Source of the DNA: Bacillota bacterium
GTDB lineage: Bacteria > Bacillota > Ch66 > Ch109
Direction: 5' to 3'
Assembly: GCA_013178275.1 (NCBI GenBank)
Contig: JABLWZ010000002.1
Location: 124,001 to 188,000, forward strand
DNA length: 64,000 nucleotides
In this document: positions 2,535 through 22,446 of the stretch, piece after piece
Layout of the letters: each line of letters opens with the position of its first letter
Position numbering within the stretch: the stretch's first letter is position 1
Translations under genes and position numbers: made by a program
The notes under the pieces: generated by a model
Database searches by the model: none
The model's input: the letters and a program-made list of their open reading frames with translations, nothing else
Told to the model about the DNA's origin: nothing

Positions 2535-3428
2535 ATGAAGTTTAGAAAAGGCCGCGACTGGAAAAAGATAGCCATAAACTCACTCGCGGTAATAATTGCC
2601 CTGATCGTAGGGGTTTACGGATGGCTGTCCATCAACAAGAGGGTTGCCGAAGCCAGCAAGACCGTATCAATTCCTGTATTGGCTCGGAACATCGATCCCT
2701 ATTCAAAAATCAACCGCGAGGACCTCACCACGATCAACGTTTCAGCGTCAATTGTTGACGCTAACACTGCCGCGAACGCGGAAGAACTCGTAAACAAAGT
2801 GACAATCGCCCCAATATACAAGGACAAGCCGATTGATAAAAGGCTGCTGGTCACCCAAGATTCCTCCGCGGGGAACTACTATGTGGTAGGCGTCAACGTC
2901 GATCCCACGAGGTCTGCCGGGGTTCAGCCGGGCGACCTGGTCAACGTGTACTGGATACAACAAAGTAATACTCAAAATGGGCAGCAGCTTAATAACGTTC
3001 TCATGGCGGCGGGGGTGCGCGTCCTGAAGGTGTGCGATGACAAGGGGCAGCCTATCGACACCAAGCCTTCTGCCGGCAATACGGGTGTTCAGGGCGCGAT
3101 GTCAAGCGTGGTCGCAACCACGGCCAAGCCTCCCTCTATAGTTTATCTCGCTGTAAAACCCGAGGAGGCAAGTCGGGTGGTAGGTGGGGCGTCTCCCAAG
3201 AATGTGAATCTCGCGTTGGTCAAAATCCCCAACGCCAACAGCATTAAAAACACAACGACAACCGAAACACAAGTATTATTGCCAGAAGGGAGTGAAGTTC
3301 CGAATGGGAATACTCCAGTTGGTCAAGGCAACTCGGCCGCAACCTCAGCCGCCCCAATCACTCAAAACCGTGGAGGAAATAGCACAGAGGGCGCGGCAGG
3401 AGCTGATAAACCAGGACAAATTCCTTGA
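2535..3428 (+). CDS. CpaB/RcpC-like pilus assembly protein (SAF domain)
   Basis: N-terminal TM; VPVLARNIDPYSKINREDLTTINV SAF-like segment; position before cpaF. Confidence 0.75.
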   Translation: MKFRKGRDWKKIAINSLAVIIALIVGVYGWLSINKRVAEASKTVSIPVLARNIDPYSKINREDLTTINVSASIVDANTAANAEELVNKVTIAPIYKDKPIDKRLLVTQDSSAGNYYVVGVNVDPTRSAGVQPGDLVNVYWIQQSNTQNGQQLNNVLMAAGVRVLKVCDDKGQPIDTKPSAGNTGVQGAMSSVVATTAKPPSIVYLAVKPEEASRVVGGASPKNVNLALVKIPNANSIKNTTTTETQVLLPEGSEVPNGNTPVGQGNSAATSAAPITQNRGGNSTEGAAGADKPGQIP

Positions 3429-4635
3429 TGTCCAGGAAAAATCAATAGCTGGCAATCAACAGGCTATTGAAAAAACCAAGGAAGAGATCCGGAAAGTAAT
3501 CTCTGCCCTGGACATCGAGATTGACCTATCCGTGGAAGAACTCGTCGAAAAGGTTTACAGCATGAACTGGGGCCTCAACGTGATTGAGGACGCCTACCAC
3601 GACCCGGAGGTCGATGATATTCAGATTAACGGGGACGAAAACATATTTCTAATCCGGCGCGGCGTAATGGAGCAGATGCCGGTTACTCTCCCCCCCGGCA
3701 CCTCCGAAAAGTTGGCAATTCGGCTGACGATGCATGATGCTGGCATCAGCATTGCTGAAAACTGCCGGGCGGAGACCATTCGCGAAGACGGTTCGCGCAT
3801 CATCGTGGTGGCCCCCCCGGTGGGGAGGAATTTCTACATCACCATCCGCAAGCAGGGCAACGTCGATATGTCTGTTGAGAACCTCGAAAAGATGGGAACC
3901 TTGAACCAGAAGGTATGGGAGGCGCTCGGGGTTCTAGTAAGAGGACGTTGTAATATCTTGATTTCCGGCCCGATGATGGCGGGTAAAACCAGCCTATTGA
4001 GGGAACTGGTGGGCTTCTGTAACCCCAAAAACCGGATCATGGTGGTCGGCACCAGGGGAGAGCTTCGGCTGGGCGAACGCTATCCCGACCGAAATATTGT
4101 AGAAATCGAAGCCCGTAAAGAAAAGATGACTTCACTCAAGGATCTCTTTGAGTCAGTCATTTTTAAAATGAGTGCTGCATCCATCATTTATGAAGAATTC
4201 AAGGGATTTGGTGAAACCATCGAGGCTGTCCGATCGGGCACCAAGGGACAAAAAGGCAGTATGGCCACCACCCATGCCGTATCAGCGGAAGAGGCTATTC
4301 GGAGCACCGCGATGATCATGCTGGAGGAGGGGATCAACCTCCCCCTGGACCTCGCGATGCTGAGGGTGGCCCAGGCCTACGACCTGGTGATTCAGATGTT
4401 CTACGACCAATCCGTTGGAATCAGAAAACTGGTGTCTGTAACCGAGGTGCTCAAAAACACCGATAAGGTTCAACTCAGGGAACTGATCCGGTGGGTTCCC
4501 AATGATGCCTATATGGGGGCCGGGAGCTGGGAGTTCGTCCAGATGCCCACTGACACACTGATCGAAAAAATGTACGAGTACGGTATTGAGAGAAGCGAGG
4601 TGGAACGCCTGTGGGGAATAACGCCTACATCATGA
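3292..4635 (+). CDS. CpaF/TadA-family secretion ATPase
   Basis: ISGPMMAGKTSLLRELVGF Walker A, GTRGELRLGERYP, KGQKGSMATTHA; type II/IV secretion ATPase architecture. Start codon uncertain because of overlap with cpaB. Confidence 0.85.
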   Translation: MKFRMGILQLVKATRPQPQPPQSLKTVEEIAQRARQELINQDKFLDVQEKSIAGNQQAIEKTKEEIRKVISALDIEIDLSVEELVEKVYSMNWGLNVIEDAYHDPEVDDIQINGDENIFLIRRGVMEQMPVTLPPGTSEKLAIRLTMHDAGISIAENCRAETIREDGSRIIVVAPPVGRNFYITIRKQGNVDMSVENLEKMGTLNQKVWEALGVLVRGRCNILISGPMMAGKTSLLRELVGFCNPKNRIMVVGTRGELRLGERYPDRNIVEIEARKEKMTSLKDLFESVIFKMSAASIIYEEFKGFGETIEAVRSGTKGQKGSMATTHAVSAEEAIRSTAMIMLEEGINLPLDLAMLRVAQAYDLVIQMFYDQSVGIRKLVSVTEVLKNTDKVQLRELIRWVPNDAYMGAGSWEFVQMPTDTLIEKMYEYGIERSEVERLWGITPTS

Positions 4636-5504
4636 TGATCTTCCTGCCAGTGGCCGTACTGGTATTCATCGCGTTAAAACAAGCGTTGACCTGGCTGCTC
4701 AACCACAACTGGAAGGAGGCCTTTAAAAAGCAGTCCCGGGCCAATGGACAATACGATCGGTGGCTGGACCTCGTGGAACGCGAACTGGCAAAGCGCTCCT
4801 TCGCGACTGGGGGGAGAGCGAACATAATATTGTTCGCCGTAATCGTCCCGATCGGATTTACTATTGGCTTCTACCTGTTTGGGAATATCCCGCTCGCTGC
4901 GCTGTGTGCCACGCTGGTATTCATGCTCGTACAAAGTATCAAGAGCAACCGGGCACACGCGAGAAAGGAAAAAGTAAGCGAGCAGCTGGCATTGGCAGTT
5001 AGGAGTTACGGCAACGAGTACATGATATCGCCCCAATGGGAAAGAGCCTTAGGGGTAATCGCCAAGCGGACACCTAATCCCCTGGGCGGCATATTCGATC
5101 GGGCGTACCGGATGATCCTGGCCAATTACGATACCGATGAGCTACTGGCCAAGATGGCTGCCGAGATTGCCCTGCCTTACGGAAATGTTTTTGTTCAGTT
5201 AATGCGACTGGGGAGGAACGGTACAGCCCACGGAGCTATATTCCTTGAACTTGCCAACCGAATAGTGACCGATAGGGAACTGGATGCTCTCGAAAAGTCG
5301 CAAAACTCCGGCGAGCGGCTGGTGGCGCTAATCATTACAATCGCACCCCTAGTCGAATACTTTATCCTTGCCTCAATATTCCCGGAGACGCGTGAATTTG
5401 TTACAGAAACCGTTGCGGGAAGGCTTGTGATGTTCATCAGTCTCATCAGCGCCATTCTATACGGAGTATTAAAACGTCTGACAGTGGGGGTGGATACTAT
5501 TTGA
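4611..5504 (+). CDS. TadB-like T2SS-F family membrane protein
   Basis: Multiple TM segments, gene order after cpaF, overlap with cpaF end. Confidence 0.7.
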   Translation: MGNNAYIMMIFLPVAVLVFIALKQALTWLLNHNWKEAFKKQSRANGQYDRWLDLVERELAKRSFATGGRANIILFAVIVPIGFTIGFYLFGNIPLAALCATLVFMLVQSIKSNRAHARKEKVSEQLALAVRSYGNEYMISPQWERALGVIAKRTPNPLGGIFDRAYRMILANYDTDELLAKMAAEIALPYGNVFVQLMRLGRNGTAHGAIFLELANRIVTDRELDALEKSQNSGERLVALIITIAPLVEYFILASIFPETREFVTETVAGRLVMFISLISAILYGVLKRLTVGVDTI

Positions 5505-6259
5505 CCAGCATTATAGCGGTTACGGCAAGCATTCTAATAATTTCGTTCTTGGCTGCACGAAAGCTGCTTTACCTGGTATTTAGCCTAAATAACCCGCTGA
5601 GCCTTGACAGGTTAAAGGCCGAGTTTAATTCATTGACCAGCGAAGAACGGATTCAAATAAAATCAGGACTGGCCGGCATGGTCGCCATGTTCTTTTTGGC
5701 GATGGGGTCTAAGTGGATTATCCTTGCCATGGGTCTTGGCGGCGCCACGGGGATGTTGATAGGCAAATTCATCGGCAAAATCCTGATTGAGGGGAAATTA
5801 AACGCAAAAAGGAGGGAGATCAATTTATTCTATAAGGTTGTTGACCTGTTTAAGATGTCAGGTCTATCAACCTATTATTCGCTGTCCCTGGCGAAACCAG
5901 CAGCCCCATCCCTGAAAAAGGCGGTATCTAGTTGTCTGGGTCTGTGGCCTGAGGGCCCAGAAGTAGCCTTCGAGTCCCTCCGGCGAGAGATAGCATTACC
6001 AGAGGCCGATATTCTGGCTACCATGCTTCTTGCGGCTGAAAAGGCAGGAACGAAGAATCTTGACGGAATAATTCGAGCGGAAGTACAGAATCTTGAAAGA
6101 CTGAGGGAGGCGAGAATAAGAAAGAAAATCTCCGACACGCCTATTTACTATGTAATTTATCGCATGTTGCCAATGATGGCTGTTTTCGGGTTAATCCTGG
6201 GCACCTTCCTTCTGAAGATCAACCATGGCGCACAGGGAATAGGGTTAAAATTCTTTTAG
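5501..6259 (+). CDS. TadC-like T2SS-F family membrane protein
   Basis: TM topology, order after TadB-like gene, ATGA-type overlap. Confidence 0.7.
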   Translation: MTSIIAVTASILIISFLAARKLLYLVFSLNNPLSLDRLKAEFNSLTSEERIQIKSGLAGMVAMFFLAMGSKWIILAMGLGGATGMLIGKFIGKILIEGKLNAKRREINLFYKVVDLFKMSGLSTYYSLSLAKPAAPSLKKAVSSCLGLWPEGPEVAFESLRREIALPEADILATMLLAAEKAGTKNLDGIIRAEVQNLERLREARIRKKISDTPIYYVIYRMLPMMAVFGLILGTFLLKINHGAQGIGLKFF

Positions 6260-6278
6260 GATTATAGGAGGTCTATAA

Positions 6279-6497
6279 ATGATCGCGAAGATTAACAACA
6301 AGCTTTTATGGCTCTATCTCGCTCTAAAGAGCGAGAAGGGCAATCAAGTGATGGACGGCATGGGGTATCTGATAATCTGCCTCTGTCTTGCAGGTATCGT
6401 CTATACGGCGATGAGCACCGGCGTCGATTCCGTGGTGGACACGGTTATAACGCGGTTCACTGATGCGATGGAGGGTTGGGGAGAAACTACCCCATAG
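6279..6497 (+). CDS. Flp-like pilin (class III prepilin-like)
   Basis: 72 aa; SEKG|NQVMDGMGYLIICLCLAGIVY prepilin-like cleavage motif plus hydrophobic helix; strong RBS ataggaggt. Confidence 0.6.
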   Translation: MIAKINNKLLWLYLALKSEKGNQVMDGMGYLIICLCLAGIVYTAMSTGVDSVVDTVITRFTDAMEGWGETTP

Positions 6498-6516
6498 AAA
6501 CAATAACCATTGTTTA

Positions 6517-6546
6517 GAGGCGGCATTGCCGCCTCTTTTCGTTTTT
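6517..6546 (+). terminator. Intrinsic terminator/attenuator inside the pilus operon
   Basis: GAGGCGGC-ATT-GCCGCCTC followed by TTTTCGTTTTT. Confidence 0.85.
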
Positions 6547-6562
6547 ATAGGAGGTGTTTTCA

Positions 6563-6748
6563 ATGAAATCAATCTTCAAGAGTTTGTTTAAAGGTGAGAG
6601 GGGCAATCAATCCCTGGATGCTTTGAGCGTGGTAACCATTGCGGTGATCATCGCGGTTATCGTCTCGGCTGCATGTGTGCCGATGCTTGTCAGCACACAC
6701 AACAAAATGGTGGAAGGGGTGCAGTCATTGAATGCGACTGGTTTCTGA
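6563..6748 (+). CDS. Second Flp-like pilin/pseudopilin
   Basis: GERG|NQSLDALSVVTIAVIIAVIVSA; same motif as previous gene; aggaggt RBS then ATG at 6563. Confidence 0.6.
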   Translation: MKSIFKSLFKGERGNQSLDALSVVTIAVIIAVIVSAACVPMLVSTHNKMVEGVQSLNATGF

Positions 6749-7175
6749 GGAACGAGGTTCAAGCCAATCGATTGAGTTCCTGATTATCGGGATGATGTCC
6801 CTTATTATCGTCTGCCTGGCAATCAGTTACAACATCGTGCAGGTGGAGCAGCAGCAGTGTGAGCACCTCTCGAACTACTACCTGGCAAGGATGAGAGTTG
6901 AGGGGTACTTAACCAACGATGATGAGGACGAAATGATAGCCAGGTTTGCCAGCATTGGGATGCAGGTTCAGAGTATCGATGCGCCGAGGGAGTCCCTGGG
7001 AGACCCCCGCATCTTGAGGACCACTGATCCCGATGGCGAAGAGGTTTGGCTCACAATTGTGGCCGCGCCCAACGAGAACCCACTGAAAACAGGGAGTTTC
7101 ATTGGCAGCACCAGCGGTGGGACCTTAACCTTCACGGTAGGGGGGAGGGCTAAGAGTGAGAGAATCGATCCGTAA
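6732..7175 (+). CDS. TadE-like/pseudopilin protein
   Basis: SEERG-SSQSIEFLIIGMMSLIIVCLAIS N-terminus; overlaps previous gene. Confidence 0.5.
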   Translation: MRLVSEERGSSQSIEFLIIGMMSLIIVCLAISYNIVQVEQQQCEHLSNYYLARMRVEGYLTNDDEDEMIARFASIGMQVQSIDAPRESLGDPRILRTTDPDGEEVWLTIVAAPNENPLKTGSFIGSTSGGTLTFTVGGRAKSERIDP

Positions 7176-7770
7176 TCTGATTTTGGGGGAGAAGGGAATC
7201 TCGGGTTCGGTATTCTTCTTGATAACCTTCCAAGTGCTGTTGATTATCCTGCTGATGTCCGTGGAGATACCTCGCGTTGTGGGGAACGCGGACCTGGTGC
7301 TTAATAATGCCGTTTCAGAGGCAGTGAGAGCCTCTGCTTATCTGGTGGATGAAGAGAGCCAGGCCAACCGGGATTTTCGGATAAAGCCGGATGAAGCCCA
7401 CGAGAGGTACAGGACCATCTTGGCCAAAAACCTTAAACTATCCGATGCAACCCTACAGCCGATGAGTGGTTCGCCGCTTTCCGCGGCCCCTCATTACGTA
7501 TTTGTGGTGTTTAACGGCACCAATCCATATGTCGACGCGGGCGCCATTTACGAGGATGGCAGTTTTGTAGGTAATTTCTCCGGGGACCTCCCACAGACGT
7601 ATTCCATCAGCGATTTCGTTATCGTTGACAACAACACCTATAATAGATCCTTCGAGATATCCTCTCCATCCTGCCTCGGCCTGATAAGCATTGAGGATAA
7701 GGCGATCCTGACCAATAATACGAGCCGTTCAGTCAGGTATGCCGTAGCCGAGGTCAAAACAAGGGATTAG
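7156..7770 (+). CDS. TadE/TadF-like pseudopilin protein
   Basis: GEKGISGSVFFLITFQVLLIILLMSVEIP N-terminal helix then extracellular domain. Confidence 0.5.
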   Translation: MRESIRNLILGEKGISGSVFFLITFQVLLIILLMSVEIPRVVGNADLVLNNAVSEAVRASAYLVDEESQANRDFRIKPDEAHERYRTILAKNLKLSDATLQPMSGSPLSAAPHYVFVVFNGTNPYVDAGAIYEDGSFVGNFSGDLPQTYSISDFVIVDNNTYNRSFEISSPSCLGLISIEDKAILTNNTSRSVRYAVAEVKTRD

Positions 7771-7791: not shown

Positions 7792-10011
7792 ATGTCAAGA
7801 AAACTTCTAATACTAGTCGGGTTCTTGGCCGTGTTCGCGCTCTTTCCAAGGGCAGCGCCTGCTGCAACCTGGGACTACACGATTAAAAACGCGGATACGG
7901 CAACAACAATCGACGTATCTGGTACAAACGCGGTGGTGGATACCGACACCAATGAGATCAGGCTCCCGAAAGCCTCCCCACACGCAGTATCCTTTTACCC
8001 TGATGGTAGTCCCGACTTTGTTGTTACCACACCGACTAAAGTGATACACTACGCGCTCGACATCGCTACAAATACCTATAAAGAGGTCGGAGTGCTTGAA
8101 ATAAACCCACCATCCAACCCGCTTGGAGTCGTAGGAGTATCGCCTTACCCTGATGTGGTCGTATCGACGCAGACCGGGACCTACCATTATTCTTTTGCAG
8201 CCAGCATGGTTCAAAACCCGGCTCTCTCGGTTGCAGGATTGCAGGGGTGTATGTCGATAGGGGCTCGGGACATGGACGTAGCCGGACTGGTCGGCAATTC
8301 TGTGGAAGCATACAGCTTCCAGGCAGGGGCGATGGCAAGAGCCGCTTCACTTGAACCCTCTGCGGCGCTAAACAATCCCGTTGACATCATTCTCTATAGC
8401 GACCGCAAAGGGATGGCCGTTGCCGAGAACGATCGGGTGAGAGTGTTTCTTTATAACGGCAGTTCTTCGCCTGAAGCCACCTTCCTTAATATCACCGGCC
8501 AGAACGGTATAATAGCCCTCGGCGCAGCAGAAGATATGCGGACCGCGTTTATATCCGGGTCGTCTGTTTACGAATGGCAGTTGGACGCAGCCTCAGGAAC
8601 AATGAAAGACGTGCCCGTACTGGCTGTTACATCGGGATTGAAGGCACCATCGCTAGTAGCGCTGCGGCCTAACTCCTACGACCGCATTATCGGTGACGGT
8701 GACACGTTGCGGTATTACAAGTGGAATAGCTCATCCGGCCAACTAGAGTACAACGCGAGCCTTTCAGTGGCCGTTGCAGGTCTGAGTAATCTAGGGAGAT
8801 ATATCCCATCTGCAACCGCGTTGTCTTTACCTTTTGACCCGGGGGCTGACACCCCGTATGTGCGGGTGAGGGCATCGATTGATGCGCCGACAAACACCAG
8901 CATAACCTTCAGCGTGACCGCCGATTCAACTACCTGGGCGACAACCTGGCGAGTGCGCGGAACGGCGGGCGGGACCGTCTGTGAAACAACAACTGATAAC
9001 GGTACCACCTGGACGTCTATCGGGGATAGATCCCAAGTGCTTCCTACGTTCGAGAACAATCAGATATGGGTTACACTCCCAGCTGGTAGATCGGTAAGAT
9101 GGAAGGCAGTGCTGGCCACCAGTGACCCTGAAGCTACGCCCAGAATCGTAACGGTACCTGCAGGCGGAGTAGCGGTAAGGATAGATACGGACGCAGCCCC
9201 GAATGTCCCGATCATGCCCACCTATAGTTCGTGTTTTTCGGTGGCAAGCCCGGCGTTAGAATGGACGTTCTCGGACCCAGACCCTGGGGACTATCAAACC
9301 GCATACCAGGTGCAGGTTGTAAAAACCGATATGGCCCTCTTATACGACACAGACTGGGTAACATCATCTGATGAAGAATGTATCGTGCCGTCGAGTTCCG
9401 CCCCGGATACCCCAAGTCTCTTGTGGGATAGCGGGGATTACAACTTCAACTACCGTGTGCGGTGCAAAGATCGCCTCGGGCTTGAATCGTCCTGGTCAAA
9501 CTACGTGAGCTTTTGTGTTATCGCTTTTGACCGACCCAGGATAGCAGAGATCGTGTCACCCCCGGCGCAGACTTTCCTTGCAGGTACCGAGCCGGTGCTG
9601 AATTTGCCGACAACCCACATCGTAATAACCCCAGGCATGACTTCCACAGCGTTGCCCCCAGTGGGGTTGCCCAGGATAAAGGCAGGGGCTAAAGCAACTC
9701 TGTTGGTTGACAGCATAGGACCGGTCAGCAGCGTTTCGTCGGCTTTTCCGTATTTAACCACTACGTCAACGGTCTGGAACCAGGAGCAAATAGCGACAAA
9801 TGGCGTGAACGGGCGATGGCAATTTGAGTTTTCGACCGACGCCAACCTGGATGTTTGTCCATCTGGTACAGTGGTCGGGATGGATCTGGAGGGTAACGGT
9901 GCATCTGGAGCAACAGAGCTACATACCCCAGACTACTCTGATGGCGTTGCGGTTACTTCGGGCTCAATATACACCGATTGGGTTGTAGCCTTAAAAGGTC
10001 GTTCACTATAA
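7792..10011 (+). CDS. Large secreted protein with repeat-rich beta structure (739 aa)
   Basis: Signal peptide (SRKLLILVGFLAVFALFPRAAPAA); many V/T/S-rich repeats; last gene before terminator of the pilus cluster. Confidence 0.7.
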   Translation: MSRKLLILVGFLAVFALFPRAAPAATWDYTIKNADTATTIDVSGTNAVVDTDTNEIRLPKASPHAVSFYPDGSPDFVVTTPTKVIHYALDIATNTYKEVGVLEINPPSNPLGVVGVSPYPDVVVSTQTGTYHYSFAASMVQNPALSVAGLQGCMSIGARDMDVAGLVGNSVEAYSFQAGAMARAASLEPSAALNNPVDIILYSDRKGMAVAENDRVRVFLYNGSSSPEATFLNITGQNGIIALGAAEDMRTAFISGSSVYEWQLDAASGTMKDVPVLAVTSGLKAPSLVALRPNSYDRIIGDGDTLRYYKWNSSSGQLEYNASLSVAVAGLSNLGRYIPSATALSLPFDPGADTPYVRVRASIDAPTNTSITFSVTADSTTWATTWRVRGTAGGTVCETTTDNGTTWTSIGDRSQVLPTFENNQIWVTLPAGRSVRWKAVLATSDPEATPRIVTVPAGGVAVRIDTDAAPNVPIMPTYSSCFSVASPALEWTFSDPDPGDYQTAYQVQVVKTDMALLYDTDWVTSSDEECIVPSSSAPDTPSLLWDSGDYNFNYRVRCKDRLGLESSWSNYVSFCVIAFDRPRIAEIVSPPAQTFLAGTEPVLNLPTTHIVITPGMTSTALPPVGLPRIKAGAKATLLVDSIGPVSSVSSAFPYLTTTSTVWNQEQIATNGVNGRWQFEFSTDANLDVCPSGTVVGMDLEGNGASGATELHTPDYSDGVAVTSGSIYTDWVVALKGRSL

Positions 10012-10148: not shown

Positions 10149-11018
10149 ATGATGAATTTAAAAAAAGTTTTACTGTTGATGTTAATATCTTCGGTTTTTG
10201 CTGTTACTTTCACTATGACAGACTCGAAACAGGCATTAGCTCAAACTTATACTTACGATTGTGGTAATTATAGTAATTCTAATCGTTATATAAGATTGAG
10301 CGGTTCATTTACTTCATTCAATAGAACACATAACTACTCTTTGCCGTTGTATACAATATCTTCCCGCTATAGCAACCATCACTATTATATTGATTATATA
10401 CTCCCCGATGACGGTTCTACTTGGCAGGTGGTGGGATTCTACTATGTTGACTACTGTTATAGTATTGAAGGTATGCCAAGCTGTGAAAGTACAACATTTT
10501 TATTTGATCAGACTGTAACAACTCCTGGCACCTTTCCTTATCCAACTATTGATCAGGCCGTAAGCGCGGCAAACGCGGCCAAAGCTAGCGCAGAACAGGT
10601 AGCAGACGATACAAATGATATCAGAAATAATTTATTGTCAATCTCCGGAGGAATTGTCCAAGACGCTAACGGGACCGTCTTGCAAGCTGCGCGTGAGGCA
10701 AAAGATCGAGCGGATCAGATTTATAATTTAGTGTCCAACACAAAAGTTTCAATACCTCCTCAAATAATAAATACTCAAGGGGTAGGCGGTGCAACATGTA
10801 CAAGTAGTACATCATACTCATTAATAGTAACTTCTTATCCTGAATCTGGAGTCGTATACAATGCGACATTACTCGGACCTTCAACGGGGGACATCTCTAT
10901 TGTGGGTAACATAATTACGTTTAGCAACCTGACTGATCCGGGTGCATATACCGCGACTATCACTGCAACAAATGATGGTGGGACTTCGTCAAATATATTT
11001 AATTTTTTCAAAGTGTAA
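10149..11018 (+). CDS. Secreted paralogue 1 (variable N-domain / coiled-coil / conserved C-domain)
   Basis: Signal peptide; YILPDDGSTWQVVGF; AAKASAEQVADDTNDIRNNLL; GVGGATCTSSTSYSLIVTSYPESG...GAYTATITATND...FFKV. Confidence 0.7.
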   Translation: MMNLKKVLLLMLISSVFAVTFTMTDSKQALAQTYTYDCGNYSNSNRYIRLSGSFTSFNRTHNYSLPLYTISSRYSNHHYYIDYILPDDGSTWQVVGFYYVDYCYSIEGMPSCESTTFLFDQTVTTPGTFPYPTIDQAVSAANAAKASAEQVADDTNDIRNNLLSISGGIVQDANGTVLQAAREAKDRADQIYNLVSNTKVSIPPQIINTQGVGGATCTSSTSYSLIVTSYPESGVVYNATLLGPSTGDISIVGNIITFSNLTDPGAYTATITATNDGGTSSNIFNFFKV

Positions 11019-11039
11019 CCTTGATGAATGCCCACTTTG

Positions 11040-11155
11040 TTATTACTCCGGCAATTAAATATTTGAATAATACCAGCTTGCATGATGGCTATTACCAGGA
11101 TATTCCAATATATTGCATGCCGATGGTTTTACATGTTTAATTGCCGGAGTAATAA
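11040..11155. repeat. 20-bp perfect inverted repeats flanking 76 bp
   Basis: TTATTACTCCGGCAATTAAA (11040-11059) and its exact reverse complement (11136-11155). Confidence 0.9.
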
Positions 11156-11169
11156 GAGGAGGAATCTCT

Positions 11170-12030
11170 ATGAAAACACTATTTAAAAAGATGGCTTTGG
11201 GAACAACATTTGTAGGAATTTTTGTATTGATAAGTGCAATCCCGGTATTCGGAGCCACCTTTACCTACACCATAGGGTCTTTTCAAACATCTGGTAATAG
11301 CGTTAGCCCTATTTCTGCGGTTGGATATAACAAGACACATGGATTCACAATGTCGTTGCCATGCTCAGTCAGGTTCTCTGGTAGCGGTAGCAGACCTGCG
11401 TATTTTGATTATACATTGCCCGATGATGGGTCGACTTGGGTCGTTACAGGGACGTGGGCCGTCTGCACGAACTATAGCGATGGTATTGGTGCTATGCAAC
11501 CTACATACATAGGCTATGGAAGTTTCACTGAAACCAAGACCACTACTGGAACATTTACTGGCGTGTCTATCCAACAGGCTGTTTCAGCAGCACAACAAGC
11601 TAAGACTAGTGCAGATGAAGCTGTAGAAAATACAAATATCATCATAGATGATCTTCTATCTGAAAGCGGGAATTTGGTACAGGATTCGGAAGGTACGGCC
11701 ATTGAGGGTATCAGAAACCTTCAATCTACGGTCAACAACATCAGTAATAATATTAGCAATAACATTGTCCCAAATATTGATAGTATAAATGGTGTAAATG
11801 GAGCGACATGCACCACCGGTAACGAGTTCACACTAGTTATATCGGCTAATCCCAGTTCAGATGTTACCTACCGGGTGCAGTGTGGTTCGTTCGACTCTGG
11901 GTGGGTAACTGGCAATACAATTACTATCACGGACCTATCCGTTACTGGCGCTTATCAGGCTTTATGTCAGGTTAAACATGATAGTTCTGGTATGACTGCT
12001 CAGAAGGATTTCACGTTTTTTAAGATATAA
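11170..12030 (+). CDS. Secreted paralogue 2
   Basis: Signal peptide; YTLPDDGSTWVVTGTW (as in paralogue 1); NGATCTTGNEFTLVISANPSSDV...GAYQALCQV...FFKI; RBS gaggagg. Confidence 0.7.
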   Translation: MKTLFKKMALGTTFVGIFVLISAIPVFGATFTYTIGSFQTSGNSVSPISAVGYNKTHGFTMSLPCSVRFSGSGSRPAYFDYTLPDDGSTWVVTGTWAVCTNYSDGIGAMQPTYIGYGSFTETKTTTGTFTGVSIQQAVSAAQQAKTSADEAVENTNIIIDDLLSESGNLVQDSEGTAIEGIRNLQSTVNNISNNISNNIVPNIDSINGVNGATCTTGNEFTLVISANPSSDVTYRVQCGSFDSGWVTGNTITITDLSVTGAYQALCQVKHDSSGMTAQKDFTFFKI

Positions 12031-12075
12031 AACGGAGAACACGCGCGTTACTAAAAAGTAAGGAGGTCGAAAGTC

Positions 12076-13071
12076 TTGGCTAAAACCATGATTAATAAGG
12101 TAATCCTCTTAATATTGACTCTTGTTGCTGCTCTATTTATGAATACTCTTGCAGCTTATGCATGGGTTCCGGCTGGGAACGTATCAAAAAGCTTCCCTGT
12201 AGGCTGCACAATTAAGATTAATTCGCAAGGTAAAACCAACTATAATCCTGATAACTCAATCATACTTCAGCCTACTTTGTCTGCGTACAGAATAAATTCT
12301 GATCCTACTGTAACTGCTAATCCCACAGTAACATTTCCGACTACATCTTGTAGCTCAACCGGCACGTATATCATTAGAATTTTTGCTCGGTATTCTGATG
12401 GCTCTAGCGACACAACTCTTTGGACATTCGACCTGAACAACTCATCAGTACACAATGAACATTCCTACGGGAATCAATCAGTAACCATCCCAAGACTTAA
12501 AGGGACAAGCCAGTTGGAGTGGTATTCGATTGATGATGTAAACAGCAGTCAACTGAGCTTCTACAATCGAAGCGACACTGCTACAGGTTCCTTCAGACCG
12601 AATGTAACTAGTTCTTTTAAACAGGCCAGCAATACAGCCGATCAGGAAAGTGTGGATGATATTAAGGTAAATGTAGCCGAAGCGAGGGATGCTGCCAATA
12701 GTGCGAAAGAAAGCGCTGAAGCTGTCATTGAAAATGTTTACGACTCAACTGAAAACAAATCAGTATTAGATTATGTTAAGGAAATTAAGAACTCTCAAGA
12801 CCCCCACCAGTTCGTAATGATTAATAAGATCCAAGGCTTAGGGGGTGCTACCTGTACTTCGTCCGGTAGTTTTGTTTTATTGGTCAATACGACACCAAAA
12901 GACGTTGATATGTCGGTCCGTTGTGAAGGGCCTAGCTCACCTACGATTGCTGTAGATGGGAATAAAATAACATTTAATGGATTAACAGAAAGTGGAGCCT
13001 ATACCGCGACTGCAACGGCAACGAGAGGGGTAACATCTGCAGAAAGTAGTTTTACATTTTTTAAAATCTAA
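12076..13071 (+). CDS. Secreted paralogue 3
   Basis: Signal peptide; unique N-domain; VYDSTENKSVLDYVKEIKNS; IQGLGGATCTSSGSFVLLVNTTPKD...GAYTATATATRG...FFKI; TTG start after aaggagg. Confidence 0.7.
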   Translation: MAKTMINKVILLILTLVAALFMNTLAAYAWVPAGNVSKSFPVGCTIKINSQGKTNYNPDNSIILQPTLSAYRINSDPTVTANPTVTFPTTSCSSTGTYIIRIFARYSDGSSDTTLWTFDLNNSSVHNEHSYGNQSVTIPRLKGTSQLEWYSIDDVNSSQLSFYNRSDTATGSFRPNVTSSFKQASNTADQESVDDIKVNVAEARDAANSAKESAEAVIENVYDSTENKSVLDYVKEIKNSQDPHQFVMINKIQGLGGATCTSSGSFVLLVNTTPKDVDMSVRCEGPSSPTIAVDGNKITFNGLTESGAYTATATATRGVTSAESSFTFFKI

Positions 13072-13158
13072 AATTTTTTAATGAAAAGAAAGGTAGGGGG
13101 AAATCCCTATGCAACATACTATGATTTATCCCTAGCGAATAAAAGGGGGGGAATTTCA

Positions 13159-14079
13159 GTGTTAAAGAAATTGTTCCTGGTATTGATGTGCTGCCTGATG
13201 GTTATATCGTTTAATGCCGGAATAGCTAATGCAGCAGGTATTCCAGTCTTTCAATTTTCAGCAACTTCTCTTGGTTCTGGAAGTCTATACATAAGATATA
13301 ACGATTATGAGTGGTCCGCGTATGTACCGCCCCCAGATCAGGAGGGCATAGGGTATACTTATTATTACAAGATTCTATATACAATGCCCGAGACATATTT
13401 AAACACTGGATACTATATTGCGGCCTACAGTATTTATTCTAGTGGGGATGGGAGTACTACTACTACCTATACTGGGGTCTTGATTCAAGGTCGCGATTCG
13501 GCGACCGGGGCGTGGAGAAACATTCAAAGCTACAGTTTTGGTCGCAATGGCAACACCACTCTTACCAAGACTTTGACAACTACAGAAATGTGTAAGCAAC
13601 TAAGAATAGTTGGATATGTTGATGGCGTAAACAACGTTTATGGCAGAGTTACTGGAACTTTAAATAGTATTGATGTATCTCTTTTGTCAGCGGACCAAGA
13701 TACTGTCCAGGAGGCAAAAAACGCTGCGCTAAACGCTTATGAGGCATGTTACGATTCCGTAGCGGATAAAACCGTAGTTGACTATGTTAAAGAGATCAGG
13801 CAATCCGTTCAACCTGATGTTGAAATTAATAAAGTTCAAGGTCTGGGGGGCGCTACTTGCACCTCATCAACCTCATATACTCTTGTGGTTTCGGTAAGTC
13901 CCTCAACAGGGGCAACCCTAACCGCAACTTGCTCCGGCCCTAGTTCCCCATCAATTAGCATTAGCGGGAATAGAGTTACTTTTAATGGATTATCTGCTCA
14001 GGGAGCTTATACAGCGAATATAGTCGCTACCTTCGGCAGCACATCAACACAATATAGTAATGTCTTTTTTAAAGTGTAA
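13159..14079 (+). CDS. Secreted paralogue 4
   Basis: GTG start giving signal peptide MLKKLFLVLMCCLMVISFNAGIANAAG; VLIQGRDSATGAWRNIQSYSFG; VQGLGGATCTSSTSYTLVVSVSPSTGATLTATCSGPSSPS. Confidence 0.7.
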   Translation: MLKKLFLVLMCCLMVISFNAGIANAAGIPVFQFSATSLGSGSLYIRYNDYEWSAYVPPPDQEGIGYTYYYKILYTMPETYLNTGYYIAAYSIYSSGDGSTTTTYTGVLIQGRDSATGAWRNIQSYSFGRNGNTTLTKTLTTTEMCKQLRIVGYVDGVNNVYGRVTGTLNSIDVSLLSADQDTVQEAKNAALNAYEACYDSVADKTVVDYVKEIRQSVQPDVEINKVQGLGGATCTSSTSYTLVVSVSPSTGATLTATCSGPSSPSISISGNRVTFNGLSAQGAYTANIVATFGSTSTQYSNVFFKV

Positions 14080-14121
14080 TTTGATTCGAACAGGTACCTT
14101 TTTGGAATGGAGGGAACCTCA

Positions 14122-15075
14122 ATGTTAAAGAAAACACTTCTAATCCTGCTGTGCTGCCTGATGGTTTTGACATATAATGTCGAGGTGGTTAATACAGCAG
14201 GTGTGCCGGTATTCCAGTGTACGGTTAGCCCGGCTACAACTATTAGTACGACACATGCGTCTCCTACAAGTTACGATTGGACAACCACAACCCCTGCTTG
14301 TAGCGATGAAGGAGGATGCATTAACTATTATCAATACTATAAAGTATTGCTCATATCATCGAATTACTTTAGCACAGACTACTATATAACATCTTACAAC
14401 CTTACTGTCACAGCATTAAGAAACAGTACAACGTCGTGGGTAGCCATAACAATACAGGGCCGCAACAGCGCGAATGACACATGGGTCGACATTGATACAG
14501 TAAGTCTTAACAGTGGCCAATCTACTACTATAAACAGAGATCTAAGGATGACTAAACAAATCAGAATTATTGGCGTTGGTGGTGATAAGTGGATAAATTC
14601 TGGCGGAGGACGCTTTTCAGGAACATTTAATAGTTATGCGCTTAGTCTTGTCTCCGCAGATCAGAATACAGTAGAACTTGCCCGACAAGCCGCAGTAAAC
14701 GCGAGTGTTAGTGCTCAAAATGCGTATACCGCTGTTTACGACGATGTAGCCGATAAGTCGGTTATAGATTACGTGAAGGCGATAGAGCAAAAGGTTAACA
14801 ATGCAAGTTCGAATGTAAGTATTACGAAAGTACAGGGCCAGGGTGGAGCGACATGCACCTCAACCAGCTCCTTTACTGCCGTTGTGTCTGTAAGCCCTGA
14901 AACGGGGGCAACCTTAACAGCAACCTGCACCGGTCCTAGTTCACCATCTGTAGTCGTTTCCGGGAACAAAGTAACTTTTAGCGGGTTAAATAGCCCAGGA
15001 GCCTACACCGCGACTATTAGAGCAACGATCGGTACCACAACTTCTTCTTACAGCCATACATTCTTCCGAATATAG
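14122..15075 (+). CDS. Secreted paralogue 5
   Basis: MLKKTLLILLCCLMVLTYNVEVVNTAG signal; ITIQGRNSANDTWVDIDTVSLN; VQGQGGATCTSTSSFTAVVSVSPETGATLTATCTGPSSPS. Confidence 0.7.
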   Translation: MLKKTLLILLCCLMVLTYNVEVVNTAGVPVFQCTVSPATTISTTHASPTSYDWTTTTPACSDEGGCINYYQYYKVLLISSNYFSTDYYITSYNLTVTALRNSTTSWVAITIQGRNSANDTWVDIDTVSLNSGQSTTINRDLRMTKQIRIIGVGGDKWINSGGGRFSGTFNSYALSLVSADQNTVELARQAAVNASVSAQNAYTAVYDDVADKSVIDYVKAIEQKVNNASSNVSITKVQGQGGATCTSTSSFTAVVSVSPETGATLTATCTGPSSPSVVVSGNKVTFSGLNSPGAYTATIRATIGTTTSSYSHTFFRI

Positions 15076-15090: not shown

Positions 15091-15124
15091 GCCCCCGCCT
15101 GATTCGTTGGGCGGGGGTTTCTTA
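15091..15124 (+). terminator. Intrinsic terminator ending the paralogue array
   Basis: CCCCCGCC-(loop)-GGCGGGGG then TTTCTTATTT. Confidence 0.9.
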
Positions 15125-16663: not shown

Positions 16664-16700
16664 ATTGATATTATTAAAACACGTGCAAAGGAGGAATTGT

Positions 16701-17771
16701 ATGCTTTACGGAATCGCCCTAGATTTGGGATATGGCTATACCAAGGGGGTTAACCAGGATAATGACCGGTTCATAACCCCCTCGCTGGTTGGGTCTGGTA
16801 GGAAAATGTACCTGGGAGAGATATTTGGCAGCGGAGATGACAACAATGACCTTTACGTGAGGCTTGAGAGCGGCGGTCGGTCGGCTGAGTATTTCGTTGG
16901 TGACCTGGCGCGCCGGGAGAGCAGGGATGCTAGCCAGGCTTTCGATTCGAACAAGGTTTTCCACCCGCACACCCAGGTGCTTCTGGCTACGGCAGCTGCA
17001 AGACTGATGCCGAAGGATCAGAGGAAGGTTCACCTGGTAAGCGGCCTTCCTTTGGAAGAATACTACCGCCAGAAAGATGCTTTCCAGCAACACCTGGAGA
17101 ACTTTCAGGCCAAGGTTACCTTTATCAAGAACGATAAAGACGTTTACAGCAAGGAGATCAAGTTCGATGAGGTGACCATTTTCCCGCAGGGTGCCGGTGC
17201 TGTGTATCATGCCTTTAAGAAACACCGGGGGTACTTCCAGAAAGGTTACCTCATCGGCCTGGTCGATGTTGGCACCAAAACTACTGACGTGATCGTATTT
17301 GAGGTCGCCGATCGGTTTATTATCCGTCACCAGCTCAGCGCCACTTTCGAAATCGGGACCTCTACTCTATACCAGGAGATCCTGAGCAAGTCCAGCGAGA
17401 TGGTGGGCAGCACATTGGAGAGCAACAAAATACCCATCATCATGGAGAACATGAAAGCGTTTTATCACCGGGGCCAGGACTACGATCTATCGGGCATCGT
17501 GGAACAGGCTCGCAATAATATTGCTCTTTCCATCAAAGACAAGCTGACCGCTCTGTGGGGGAGCGACATCGACTGTTTCCGGGTGGTCTTTCTCGGCGGT
17601 GGGGGCAGCGGTGAACTGAACACCGGATTGAGAGGCATTCATCCTACCACCGTCCTGTTGGAGGACTGCCAATTCGCTAACGCTTACGGTTTTATGGTCG
17701 TCCACAGCATGGTCACAAAGCGTTTGATAACACCCACTGAAAGGGATTCTGTTATCAGCAAGGCTATATAA
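16701..17771 (+). CDS. ParM/StbA-like plasmid segregation actin
   Basis: GIALDLGYGYTKGVNQ phosphate-1 loop, VDVGTKTTDVIVFE phosphate-2 motif, FLGGGGSGEL adenosine motif; aaaggaggaattgtATG. Confidence 0.75.
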   Translation: MLYGIALDLGYGYTKGVNQDNDRFITPSLVGSGRKMYLGEIFGSGDDNNDLYVRLESGGRSAEYFVGDLARRESRDASQAFDSNKVFHPHTQVLLATAAARLMPKDQRKVHLVSGLPLEEYYRQKDAFQQHLENFQAKVTFIKNDKDVYSKEIKFDEVTIFPQGAGAVYHAFKKHRGYFQKGYLIGLVDVGTKTTDVIVFEVADRFIIRHQLSATFEIGTSTLYQEILSKSSEMVGSTLESNKIPIIMENMKAFYHRGQDYDLSGIVEQARNNIALSIKDKLTALWGSDIDCFRVVFLGGGGSGELNTGLRGIHPTTVLLEDCQFANAYGFMVVHSMVTKRLITPTERDSVISKAI

Positions 17772-18017: not shown

Positions 18018-18332
18018 TTGGATAAAACAAAGCCTTATTGGTTTCGTTTAAACGAACCTCAGGGGCTGAAGGAATATCTTAATTCCTTAAACGGAACCGA
18101 AAGGTCTAACTATATCAGATCAGCCTTAATGTGGTACTGGCGTTTCGGGGATTTACTCGATTCCATCGACCAAAAACTTGACCAGGTGCTGAAGGTCGGG
18201 ATATCCTGCGTACCACCTGAAGCCCCAGCGCCAGCAAGTGGTGTTAAGTCCGAAGAACCTGTAGAATCAGAGCTTGATGATGATTTCCTCGAAGCCTCCA
18301 CATTTGCGATCATCACAGGCAGCAGGAATTAG
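18018..18332 (+). CDS. Small ParR/RHH-like DNA-binding protein (putative)
   Basis: 104 aa; FRLNEPQGLKEYLNSLNGTERSNYIRSALMWYW resembles a ribbon-helix-helix segment; lies right after ParM-like gene and repeats. Confidence 0.4.
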   Translation: MDKTKPYWFRLNEPQGLKEYLNSLNGTERSNYIRSALMWYWRFGDLLDSIDQKLDQVLKVGISCVPPEAPAPASGVKSEEPVESELDDDFLEASTFAIITGSRN

Positions 18333-18348
18333 AAGGAGGGGAGGAGCT

Positions 18349-18936
18349 TTGAACGACTATAAGAAAGACGCTTTCTCTGTGAACCCATTAAAGGGAGAAT
18401 ACAATTTTCTTGAGGAGTACACAGACAAAAAACTGAAACAGGCATATCTCAACGCGCAGAAGGCATTTTTTACCCTGGGCGAACTCATGGTTATGAGAGC
18501 CCGAGCCAAGAACTTAGCAGAGAATGTAGCCGGGGGGAAGGCCACCTTCGAGAAAGGGATCTTAAAGATATCGATCCCCGAGGTCTTGCCGATTGGCAGG
18601 TATTACACCAGTGAAAGCAAGGCCCACTGGATGGGGATGATTACCCAAGCCTATATGGGTTTAGGGAAGCAAGTTCGTATGGACCATGCGCTTTGCGTTA
18701 TCCGGACTCTTACCCCCAGTGCACAGCAGTGGGACAACGACAATCGATTGGCGGTAAGTCATATCATTAACGCGATCCGCGGCCTGGGGATAGTACCTGA
18801 TGATACCTACGAATATCTGTCATTGCTGCAGGTGGGAGGGGTAGACGAAACTGCTCCCCGGACCGAGATATTGCTGCTAGACATTGGAAGCGTTGGTGAA
18901 TTCCTGGATAGGATAGGTCTTTCCGCATTAAAATAG
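18349..18936 (+). CDS. RusA-like Holliday-junction resolvase fold protein (putative)
   Basis: WDNDNRLAVSHIINAIRGLGIVPDDTYEYL resembles the RusA D-x-DNR...L-x-G-x-G-I-x-x-DD signature; TTG start after ggaggggagg. Confidence 0.45.
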   Translation: MNDYKKDAFSVNPLKGEYNFLEEYTDKKLKQAYLNAQKAFFTLGELMVMRARAKNLAENVAGGKATFEKGILKISIPEVLPIGRYYTSESKAHWMGMITQAYMGLGKQVRMDHALCVIRTLTPSAQQWDNDNRLAVSHIINAIRGLGIVPDDTYEYLSLLQVGGVDETAPRTEILLLDIGSVGEFLDRIGLSALK

Positions 18937-18983
18937 AAGTATTTTCATTTCTGCATTTACATAAGTAAGAAAAATTCTAAAAG

Positions 18984-19120
18984 TCCGTAAAACTACCCCT
19001 AAAAAGAGGCATTTTGCTCCGTAAATCTACCCCTCATTTTTTAGGAAAGAAATCATGCGAAAAACCTTTAAGGTTTACGGAGACGGAAAAGCATCAAGCC
19101 CTTGACGTTAAAGGGGTAGA
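18984..19120. repeat. Short direct/inverted repeats in noncoding region
   Basis: TCCGTAAAACTACCCCT (18984-19000), TCCGTAAATCTACCCCT (19018-19034), inverted TTTACGGA (19074-19081), inverted AGGGGTAGA (19112-19120). Confidence 0.6.
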
Positions 19121-19373
19121 GCTTCAATGCCGCAGGCATAGGTCAAGAGCCAGAGTACAAGGGCTTGTCCGCAATGGTCATGGTCACAACTTTCCAACGC
19201 CAAAAACAGACCAAAAACGGACAAGGTAGAAGCCCGCAGTACAAAGGTCATCTCTAACAAAAAAGTCCACTTCCAACACTCTCGGTAACCATAAACGGGC
19301 GGCCAGGCGCATCTCGAAGTAAAGGAGCCTTTTTCTTTTATGAACGAACGCTTAACTGAAAGGCGGTGATGGC

Positions 19374-20414
19374 TTGGTCTCTAAACGGGCAAAGTCAACG
19401 ACATCAACTGATAACGTACAACGAAAGACGATAAAGCTGACGGAGCGGGACCAGCGAATACTGGAGGACCTCCTGCGATTGCGTACGCTGACCTCACGGC
19501 AGATAAAAAAGCTCTACTTCGGCAGTAAAGGCTCAACAGGCGCTAACCGCATATCCGAGCTTAAACGGGCGGGGCTTATCAAGCCCAATAAGGTAATCCG
19601 CAATGGCCACAAGGACGACACCTGCTACTACATATCTCCCGCAGGTATGCGGGCCATCGGCCAGAAAGGCGACCGCCCGCGGAAAAACTTCGAGATCACC
19701 AAGCGCAGGATCGAAAAGAGTTCACTGGAGCTGCAGGACTACTACATCATGCGGAGCGAGATCTATGCGACCCTATCCCCCGAATGGTACTGGGAGGACA
19801 GTCGCGAGGTAAAGGTCCAGCAAAGACTGAACTTCTCAAGTCTGATAGCGGGCACTCTTCGTCATGGCGATAACACCTATGCCGTCTACCTGATGCTGCA
19901 CAGCCCCGAAGAAACTACACTCAGACGGGTCCACGATGAGATATTCTACAACCGAGCCGCTGGGAGGTTTGAGCAGGCGTTCATCCTCTGCGTGAACGAG
20001 GATACCATCGACAAGATAATCGCCAGCTACCGTCCCGGCCCGATATTCGTTTTGCCCTACCAGCCGGGTCTGAAGATGCTGGCTCTAAACGAGCCGCCCT
20101 ACTCACTGCTGGCCAGGGTTTACGGCGAACACCCCGACAACACGACCACGCGCCGCTACGCCCGGTACGAAACTGTGATCAATGGTGAGTCCTGCCTGGT
20201 TAATCAACTGCTCTACAACAACCTGGACTCCATCTCTGCTATGAGGTACTACACCAAGGACATCTATCTCAAGGAGAAGCTGCGGTTGATAGTCCTGGTC
20301 GAAAAGGGACGATTAGACTACTACACGCGGATCTTCACCCCCGAAAACTACCCCCATTTTGTGTGGGAGACCGTTGATATAGAAGCCCTATACCAAGAGA
20401 AAGTGAGGTTATAA
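19374..20414 (+). CDS. Replication-relaxation family (wHTH) protein
   Basis: LTERDQRILEDLLRLRTLTSRQIKKLYFGSKG...RISELKRAGLI typical N-terminal wHTH. Confidence 0.7.
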   Translation: MVSKRAKSTTSTDNVQRKTIKLTERDQRILEDLLRLRTLTSRQIKKLYFGSKGSTGANRISELKRAGLIKPNKVIRNGHKDDTCYYISPAGMRAIGQKGDRPRKNFEITKRRIEKSSLELQDYYIMRSEIYATLSPEWYWEDSREVKVQQRLNFSSLIAGTLRHGDNTYAVYLMLHSPEETTLRRVHDEIFYNRAAGRFEQAFILCVNEDTIDKIIASYRPGPIFVLPYQPGLKMLALNEPPYSLLARVYGEHPDNTTTRRYARYETVINGESCLVNQLLYNNLDSISAMRYYTKDIYLKEKLRLIVLVEKGRLDYYTRIFTPENYPHFVWETVDIEALYQEKVRL

Positions 20415-20491
20415 CGGTGGTTGATGATCTAAACAAAAAAGGCAATCACCCTACAATTCAACGGGATCGACCGATAAGGAGGCGATAGCGA

Positions 20492-22387
20492 TTGATAACG
20501 TCACTGGTTGTTCTGGCCCTCTCTTCCTTAGGATTCATTACGGCTATGATTTCCCTGCCAACCCCGTTTGCCCCGCTGGTTATAACAGCGGGCATGGGGT
20601 TGATTGCTTTGACGGGGTTCAGCCGCAATCGAACAAGGAAGGTAGGGCTGATATACTTTGCCGCGCTACTTTTCAGTACCGCCTGGGCGATAAGCAGCTT
20701 TGCTCCCGAGATCAACAGCTACCTGATCTCATCATCCAAGGTAGTCGATATACAGCCCAAACCCATGATCCAGATGTTAATGCTGATGCCGTTGATCCTG
20801 GGATCGTTTCTGGCGCCGAAGATTATCGAAGAAGTTAAGGCTGGAGACATACAGCCCCGGCAGGAGACGATAGTCGACCAAGTGTTGAAAACCACAGTCA
20901 ACTACCTGAAATTGAAAAGTGGCAAGGAGCGGGCCCCGGTAAGCGACGTAGGAGCCATGCTCAACTATATCATCAAAAACGTGTCTCCACCGGAGAACCT
21001 GGACCTCGAGTTTTGCATCGACGTTAAAGCCAACAGACCCGTCACCTTGGAGGGGACTTATCGCTACCGCAATACCCTGATAACCGGTCCGCCCGGGTCA
21101 GGAAAAACGGTCACCTTAAAAAACCACATCTTCCAGGACCTCGACCGGATATCGAGTTCGCTTAAATACGGCCGACCGATGGGGCTAACCCTACTCGAAC
21201 CGAAGGGCGACCTGGTGGACGAAGTGGCCGCCCGGTGCCAGGAACTAAACATCCCGTTTCACTACATCAACCCTTTAAGTCCGTTCACGGCCCAGTTCAA
21301 CCCGATGATGGGACCCAGCGACGTTGCGGCTGAATCAACTAGGACCGTTCTGCGAAACATCTTCGGCAAGCAGGAGGCGTTTTTCGCGGTGGTCCAGGAG
21401 ACCGCGGCCCGCAATACCATTCTCCTGGTCAAGCAGCTACAGGGGGATGACCTTGACATGTTAGACGTTCTAAGGTGTCTTCGTGACCGTGCCGAGTTGG
21501 AAAAGATCGTGTCTACCGTGGAGAGGCGGGATGGCGAAAGCGATTTGACCGAGTATTTTAGGAAAGAGGCCATGGGCCGTTCCTCCGAGCACTACCATCA
21601 GTTCACCATGGGTCTGCGCGTGCAGTTAGAGGACCTGGTCGGCAACGATATGCTGAAGCGGGTACTGCTCGGTAAAAGAGGGGTAGACCTCGACAAACAC
21701 CTTGCCGAGGGAGGGGTAATGCTGGTCAACTCGGCCATGGGCCGCCTGGGAAAGCTGGGCGACACGCTGGGTAAATTCCTGGCCATGCACCTGATGAACG
21801 CGGTGTTCCGCCGCCCGGGCAGCGAGCATGAACGGCCGCCGCACTTCCTGTACGTGGATGAGTTCCCGCGCTACATGAACGAAGGTTTCGAGATACTTTT
21901 AAACATCGCGCGTAGTTATCGCTGTGCAACCACCTTGGCCATTCAGGGTTTCTCACAGATGGAATTCAACCTGGGAGAGTCTTTCAGAAAGGTCGTAATG
22001 AACAGTTGCCAGAATAAAATCGTTTTCGGCGGCATGGACGAGGCCGACGCCAAGCTGGCGGAGGCCGAAATGGGACTTATGAAAATCCAAACCAAAGAAC
22101 CTTCTTACGAGTATCGACCACTGATACCCCATGTCTTCCCAAAGGCTTATCGGATCAAGGAAAAGGACGAACCGCGGTACACCTACACCCAACTCATGGA
22201 GCTGCCGCCGTACCATTTCGTCTACCGCATGGTCCGGTTCGGGAATCTTCAGCAGCCCAGCGTGGGGAAATCCAGGCTCATCAAAAACAACACCGTATTT
22301 CAGCCCATGGTTCCAACGGAACCTCCGGCAGACACGCCAACAGCTGCGGTGCCGGTTGTTAACTCTAAACCCACCGGGTTTTTCTAG
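20492..22387 (+). CDS. VirD4/TraD-like coupling ATPase
   Basis: NTLITGPPGSGKTVTLKNH Walker A; LLEPKGDLVDEVA; FLYVDEFPRYMNEGFEILLNIARSYRCATTLAIQGFSQ Walker B region. Confidence 0.75.
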   Translation: MITSLVVLALSSLGFITAMISLPTPFAPLVITAGMGLIALTGFSRNRTRKVGLIYFAALLFSTAWAISSFAPEINSYLISSSKVVDIQPKPMIQMLMLMPLILGSFLAPKIIEEVKAGDIQPRQETIVDQVLKTTVNYLKLKSGKERAPVSDVGAMLNYIIKNVSPPENLDLEFCIDVKANRPVTLEGTYRYRNTLITGPPGSGKTVTLKNHIFQDLDRISSSLKYGRPMGLTLLEPKGDLVDEVAARCQELNIPFHYINPLSPFTAQFNPMMGPSDVAAESTRTVLRNIFGKQEAFFAVVQETAARNTILLVKQLQGDDLDMLDVLRCLRDRAELEKIVSTVERRDGESDLTEYFRKEAMGRSSEHYHQFTMGLRVQLEDLVGNDMLKRVLLGKRGVDLDKHLAEGGVMLVNSAMGRLGKLGDTLGKFLAMHLMNAVFRRPGSEHERPPHFLYVDEFPRYMNEGFEILLNIARSYRCATTLAIQGFSQMEFNLGESFRKVVMNSCQNKIVFGGMDEADAKLAEAEMGLMKIQTKEPSYEYRPLIPHVFPKAYRIKEKDEPRYTYTQLMELPPYHFVYRMVRFGNLQQPSVGKSRLIKNNTVFQPMVPTEPPADTPTAAVPVVNSKPTGFF

Positions 22388-22446
22388 GCCGAAAGTCTTG
22401 TCTGACTCAAACTTGCACCTAACTAATTTTCAAGGAGGTATAAGCA

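Follow-up and report, generated by a model that had tools for sequence, protein, structure and literature searches.

A modular array of secreted proteins with exchanged N-terminal domains in a conserved Tad pilus and conjugation-like locus of a Bacillota bacterium

Within a 64,000-nucleotide stretch of a Bacillota bacterium genome (assembly GCA_013178275.1, contig JABLWZ010000002.1, positions 124,001 to 188,000; hereafter the window), five tandem genes, A1 to A5, encode secreted proteins that share a C-terminal domain, here called CT, and differ in their N-terminal domains. Comparison with relatives supports domain swapping in this family, with unrelated N-terminal domains, or heads, joined to a constant CT at one shared breakpoint. 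The array makes up the variable portion of a conserved locus that also includes a Tad pilus, the secreted protein W7792, a ParM-like actin, and a VirD4-like protein. We consider it fairly probable that A1 to A5 are modular surface or mating-pair adhesins with interchangeable heads, belonging to a Tad-equipped, plasmid-derived system of the conjugation type.

All five genes lie on the plus strand and are separated by short gaps. With improved starts, A1 spans 10152..11018 (or starts at 10149), A2 11170..12030, A3 12088..13071, A4 13159..14079 (GTG start), and A5 14122..15075. All five carry a G-rich ribosome-binding site, and reading of the sequence gives each a Sec-type signal peptide, in agreement with an initial annotation of this DNA that described five tandem secreted paralogs. 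The GC content of the array is 41.5%, compared with 52-54% in the flanking Tad and W7792 genes. None of the five proteins has a Pfam or NCBIfam match over the cut-off, their PHROG matches are weak, and no further CT copies were found in the 4.77-Mb genome.

CT comprises about 84 residues with 19 invariant columns and is encoded at 10764-11015 (A1), 11776-12027 (A2), 12820-13068 (A3), 13825-14076 (A4), and 14821-15072 (A5). All ten pairs are significantly similar (BLASTP E values of 4e-8 to 2e-30; identity of 35-68%). AlphaFold2 models of seven sequences show a seven-stranded immunoglobulin (Ig)-like sandwich with a predicted local distance difference test (pLDDT) score of about 90, and Foldseek matches it to Ig domains, which places CT in the Ig-like (Big/FN3) superfamily and bears out the Ig/PKD-like C terminus that the annotation had proposed and suggested checking by structure prediction. 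A profile of 17 family members is remotely similar to the chitinase A1 FN3 domain 1k85 (E value of 6e-4), and the Pfam match to Big_13 (PF19077) is below the cut-off. All of these have the fold in common, but CT is a separate subfamily that opens with an NGATCT-like motif and closes with an FFK[IV]-like one no more than two residues from the end of the protein. A disulfide was rejected as a defining feature, the cysteine count ranging from 0 to 3. A1 to A5 lack the LPXTG motif and C-terminal helix of sortase anchoring, their last strand being followed at once by a terminal FF-K/R-I/V, and have no match to SLH domains. A scan of genome contigs using A5 alone gave no match, which merely reflects the high divergence of the CT family.

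The N-terminal domains fall into three classes, matching the grouping first noted. Smith-Waterman comparison shows that those of A1 (10227-10553) and A2 (11245-11574) are homologous (z = 19.5; family NF-A), as are those of A4 (13231-13692) and A5 (14197-14661) (z = 26.6; family NF-B). A3 stands by itself, with an N-domain unrelated to those of A4 and A5. Common ancestry of NF-A and NF-B was considered and rejected, hhalign finding none. Neither family has a credible match outside CT proteins in the 399 genomes of the phylum that were searched. For the A5 N-domain, Foldseek gives weak matches to CBM32, CBM6, CBM51, and discoidin at about 1e-3 in a region modeled with medium confidence, and a PDB profile search with the A4/A5 N-domain found no match; a galactose-binding-like character, as initially suggested, is thus hinted at by structure and not by profile. 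Between head and CT lies a spacer of 45-70 residues (10554-10763 in A1, 11575-11775 in A2, 12658-12819 in A3, 13690-13824 in A4, and 14656-14820 in A5). It had been called an alanine-rich coiled coil; it is predicted to be helical, but at 10-20% alanine it is just moderately alanine-rich in this genome.

Evidence for head exchange comes from genes in the same syntenic slot in relatives, sampled at one genome per species. We compared loci L041, L042, L043, and L075, from four species of one family, with a frameshifted copy in L073, from another family; either a natural mutation or a sequencing error could account for the frameshift, and the two pieces were compared separately. In all ten pairs, CT is 84-99% identical while the N-domains are mutually unrelated in Smith-Waterman comparison against 1000 shuffles. 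DNA identity drops from 65-75% to about 25%, the background level, across a single 60-bp bin where the spacer begins. Relative to the NGATCT codons, each pair has its breakpoint at about -190 nt; the adjoining spacer and CT DNA is 65-100% identical. Between L041 and L042, the replaced segment has homologous genes and DNA on either side. The converse is seen too: L074 and L075 are 55% identical in the N-domain and 34% in CT, and the A1/A2 N-domain profile matches the L073 N-domain (39.5 bits, versus at most 18.0 among 3400 shuffled decoys) while the CTs are just 30-39% identical and that of L073 falls in another clade. Together, these comparisons uphold the swapping of N-terminal domains that had been proposed from the window sequence, and they indicate that the exchange takes place at one fixed breakpoint, without an apparent site for site-specific recombination. 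A possible similar link between the L077 N-domain and A1/A2 did not reach significance by profile (15.9 bits versus 18.0 for decoys). Two orphan docks were also seen, a spacer and CT without an N-domain in L073 (8113-8526) and a membrane-anchored CT alone, 144 residues long, in L040 (6146-6580); they are possibly remnants or recombination donors.

The CT of A2 shares 63% identity with one from Desulfofundulus, compared with 37% with that of A1 and 37-41% with those of its neighbors. In the CT tree, A2 falls outside A1, A3, A4, and A5 (branch support of 98/96), and an approximately unbiased (AU) test rejects an A1 and A2 CT pair (P = 0.013). Plain tandem duplication, followed by fast N-domain and slow CT divergence with no exchange, would fit a CT that is perhaps just more constrained, and A1 and A2 are indeed alike along their entire length, as are A4 and A5, so tandem duplication plays a part too. 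As the whole explanation it is very improbable and already contradicted by the sharp border, in ten pairs, between N-domain DNA at background and well-conserved spacer and CT DNA, by the reverse pattern in L074 and L075, and by an A2 CT closer to a gene of another family than to its neighbors.

The search for near-identical C-terminal DNA suggested by the initial annotation found none (best match of 72% over 198 nt), and recent gene conversion within the array was therefore rejected. A shufflon was rejected as well: the interval 9900-15300 contains no repeated site family, and all five genes are complete. Between related species, entire CT genes are replaced, shortened, or absent (L038 versus L047; L039 versus L044), and array size and content vary; a stable, non-shuffled five-gene set did not appear.

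A CT profile (E value of 0.01) matches 17 of the 399 genomes, about 11 of them strongly; among the 17 is Desulfofundulus australicus, a relative that can be cultivated and has the locus. The distribution is patchy within three families (5/18, 4/9, and 2/20 genomes). CT sits at the extreme C terminus of proteins 137 to 983 residues long, with one to four such proteins per locus in relatives versus five in the window. Nearly all CT loci have the same neighbors: Tad genes, pseudopilin-like proteins, W15773, W7792, and a ParM-like actin. The exception, the L074 gene (9954-11039), adjoins type IVa-pilus-like genes, including a pilin with MTLIEV, and not the Tad set. Full-length W7792 occurs in 10/399 genomes, all ten of which have CT (Fisher 8e-16). 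In all nine genomes with a measurable contig, a VirD4-like gene lies 7-51 kb from CT; about 0.58 would be expected within 52 kb by a rough estimate that models each genome as one even line.

In the window, the locus begins upstream of the array with genes for a TadE-like protein (116-520; 5.1e-5, over the cut-off), two prepilin-peptidase-like proteins (534-1094 and 1996-2505), a thioredoxin/VKOR-like membrane protein (1109-1993), RcpC/CpaB (2535-3428; 3.2e-8, over the cut-off), a TadA-type ATPase (3292-4635; TadA family at 8.6e-24, below the curated cut-off), a TadB/TadC-like protein (4611-6259), and two pseudopilin-like proteins (6732-7175 and 7156-7770), all on the plus strand. The peptidase-, thioredoxin-, TadB/TadC-, and pseudopilin-like assignments come from sequence reading and synteny and not from a family match. 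The thioredoxin-like protein carries a CPHC motif, has a weak DsbE match (0.003), and is present in nearly all CT loci. The TadA ATPase, RcpC/CpaB, and TadE-like protein identify 116..7770 as a Tad pilus locus. W7792 follows (7792..10011, plus strand), a candidate conserved secreted partner with about six propeller-like repeats and then a Rha78A-like Ig domain; it is 37-50% identical among CT-bearing loci. Two W7792-like proteins depart from this form: in L079 (9779-11734; genome G261) the N-terminal half is swapped for an unrelated one, and in L078 (9326-10727; genome G237) the protein is split into two open reading frames. W7792 itself may exchange its N-terminal half.

Downstream, also on the plus strand, are W15773 (15773..16513), a membrane-anchored NTF2-like (DUF4878-like) protein whose gene adjoins CT genes in relatives too, a ParM/ALP-type actin-like protein (16665..17771), and a plasmid-type block (18018..23322) with small open reading frames (18018-18936), a Replic_Relax-like protein (19374-20414; 0.1 bit under the cut-off), a VirD4/TraG-like coupling protein (20492-22387; TraG-D_C at 1.1e-8), and an S1-domain protein (22447-23322). 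Assignment of W15773 to TcpC/VirB8 was rejected in favor of NTF2-like, its only matches being DUF4878/SnoaL-like, with none in the PDB. The 20 kb of the same contig that precede the window (L081, 104001-124000) encode a VirB4-like ATPase (PF19044, 3.6e-20), a T4SS_pilin/VirB6-like protein, an SLT and M23 transglycosylase, CpaB, a MinD/TadZ-like protein, and a second TadA-type ATPase. Both a VirB4-like ATPase and a VirD4-like coupling protein, as in conjugative elements, are therefore present. The Tad-, VirB4-, VirB6-, SLT/M23-, ParM-, and VirD4-like genes form one large locus on a 235-kb contig that also carries ordinary chromosomal genes. The array was correctly placed between a Tad-like locus and a plasmid-like block, a position more significant than first seen since all of these form one conserved locus.

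The same set occurs on pMU3262 (L119, NC_017998), a circular 111-kb plasmid of Thermoanaerobacterium saccharolyticum typed MPF_T, which encodes two Tad ATPases, CpaB, an S1 protein, and a W7792 homolog. Near the latter, 17990-24309, annotated just as hypothetical proteins, includes a secreted 861-residue propeller-type protein that ends in CT. The Sulfobacillus plasmids pL15 and pY0017 have a joint Tad and type IV secretion system (T4SS) backbone with TadA/B/C, StbA, TraG-like, VirB4, and lytic transglycosylase genes (PMC6803676). These plasmids and pMU3262 combine TadA/B/C with T4SS-type genes, as the window locus does, and pMU3262 further shares W7792-like and CT-ended proteins; however, a modular array and shuffling are not described there, and pMU3262 has one long CT protein and sequences that are 20-40% identical.

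Three known systems resemble the array. PilV, the tip adhesin of the shufflons of IncI plasmids R64 and TP114, is likewise a plasmid-linked pilus protein with a constant part, an exchangeable exposed part, and several variants (PMC9045228). PilV is a minor pilin whose variable C terminus is switched by a site-specific recombinase (PMC9045228), whereas the array varies the N terminus, keeps a C-terminal constant part without a pilin helix, and has all variants as complete genes. A1 to A5 start with a Sec signal and a variable domain rather than a type IV pilin N terminus, and inverted recombination sites were not found in 9900-15300. The Tad tips of the Myxococcus Kil system, which are TadEFG-like, also present several alternative variable surface domains on a Tad pilus (PMC12075869). 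They are minor pilins (PMC12075869), whereas CT proteins have cleavable Sec signals and no pilin helix; Tad minor pilins (TadE/F/G and Kil tips) carry a prepilin leader and hydrophobic pilin helix where A1 to A5 have a Sec-type signal followed by a beta-rich domain. The window proteins are therefore neither PilV-type nor Tad minor pilins. RSP of IncHI plasmids shares with the array proteins secretion, an Ig domain, and a gene located in a conjugation region; it is required for mating in liquid (PMC6764697). By its published description it is set apart as a single, very large, T4SS-exported protein of Gram-negative plasmids (PMC6764697), while the array consists of short modular paralogs with Sec signals in Bacillota.

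We infer from these features that the array proteins are displayed at the surface, dock by CT, and act in adhesion, in keeping with the adhesin or receptor-binding role first suggested for them. Each protein would be exported by Sec; CT and the helical stalk would form the constant part, probably docking on the pilus, W7792, or the cell surface or wall, and the exposed N-domain would bind. Recombination in stalk-coding DNA, at the stalk start, could fit new heads to an unchanged dock, and arrays may grow by tandem duplication, keeping several heads at once, and by uptake of foreign cassettes. Interchangeable heads might then broaden or change the range of cells or surfaces to which the proteins bind. 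The family would belong to a Tad-pilus and type IV secretion-like backbone derived from a conjugative plasmid, and in view of the link to T4SS genes the most appealing task would be mating-pair adhesion, with general adhesion as the main rival.

That rival, in which the proteins are Tad-pilus adhesins for surfaces, minerals, or polysaccharides with no mating role and the plasmid-type genes are mere neighbors, is unlikely but deserves serious weight. Tad pili serve as attachment organelles, the weak A5 matches are to carbohydrate-binding modules, and a MobA/VirD2-type relaxase (PF03432), the one relaxase family searched for, was absent in 12 genomes with the locus, which is why we call the locus conjugation-like and not a proven conjugative element. 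Against it stand the VirD4-like genes near CT loci in every genome measured and the presence of this gene set on pMU3262, a circular plasmid typed as MPF_T.

The relaxase result also counts against mating-pair adhesins with interchangeable heads, as do several other points. L074 has no VirD4-like gene on its 112-kb contig, the N-domain models of the seven sequences are beta-rich at low to medium confidence, a weak NF-B link joins A4/A5 to L041 (z = 5.9, with no significance in the profile comparison), and the AU test does not reject the monophyly of all five window CTs (P = 0.12).

A further, tentative proposal, which we think possible but rather less likely than not, is that these head-swapping adhesins set recipient or partner choice for Tad-equipped conjugative elements of Clostridia-type bacteria. 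PilV variants alter recipient choice in conjugation, and the array would be a reversed counterpart of PilV, with a variable N terminus and a constant C-terminal dock, and with recombination between arrays from different families as the source of its diversity. Little is known about what picks the cell held by a Gram-positive-type conjugation machine, for which a constant dock with exchangeable heads, linked to a Tad/T4SS backbone and present on a real plasmid, is a testable candidate. It may also supply natural head domains.

Decoys or shields, with variable exposed heads guarding pilus or cell against exclusion or against phages that target the pilus, would likewise fit a constant stalk with variable heads and the patchy distribution in three families; this is improbable, having no direct support and being indistinguishable from adhesion by sequence. 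Contact-delivered toxins with variable toxic heads, suggested by constant and variable modules near a secretion machine, are the least probable of all, as the N-domains are beta-rich with no toxin family found, no immunity gene lies between array members, and killing Tad tips carry pilin helices (PMC12075869) that A1 to A5 lack. A phage receptor-binding origin was rejected: tblastn with A1, A3, and A4 gave no phage matches, PHROG matches were weak, and viral contigs held no relatives. A 30% match over 73 residues to L118, a large phage structural-type protein, was taken as chance.

Some smaller features accompany the array. Between A1 and A2, a 28-nt inverted repeat (89%, arms 60 nt apart; 11040-11155) could be either an attenuator or what is left of a small mobile element. 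A terminator-like hairpin with 12 pairs and a T-rich tail (15091..15118, plus strand) may close the array; the consensus scan found 6 such hairpins against 4.8 expected by chance, so this one is merely suggestive. Downstream of the locus, open reading frames at 34523-36972, 39154-41136, and 57983-59618 read as IS3-, IS110-, and IS21-like transposase genes and a tyrosine recombinase.

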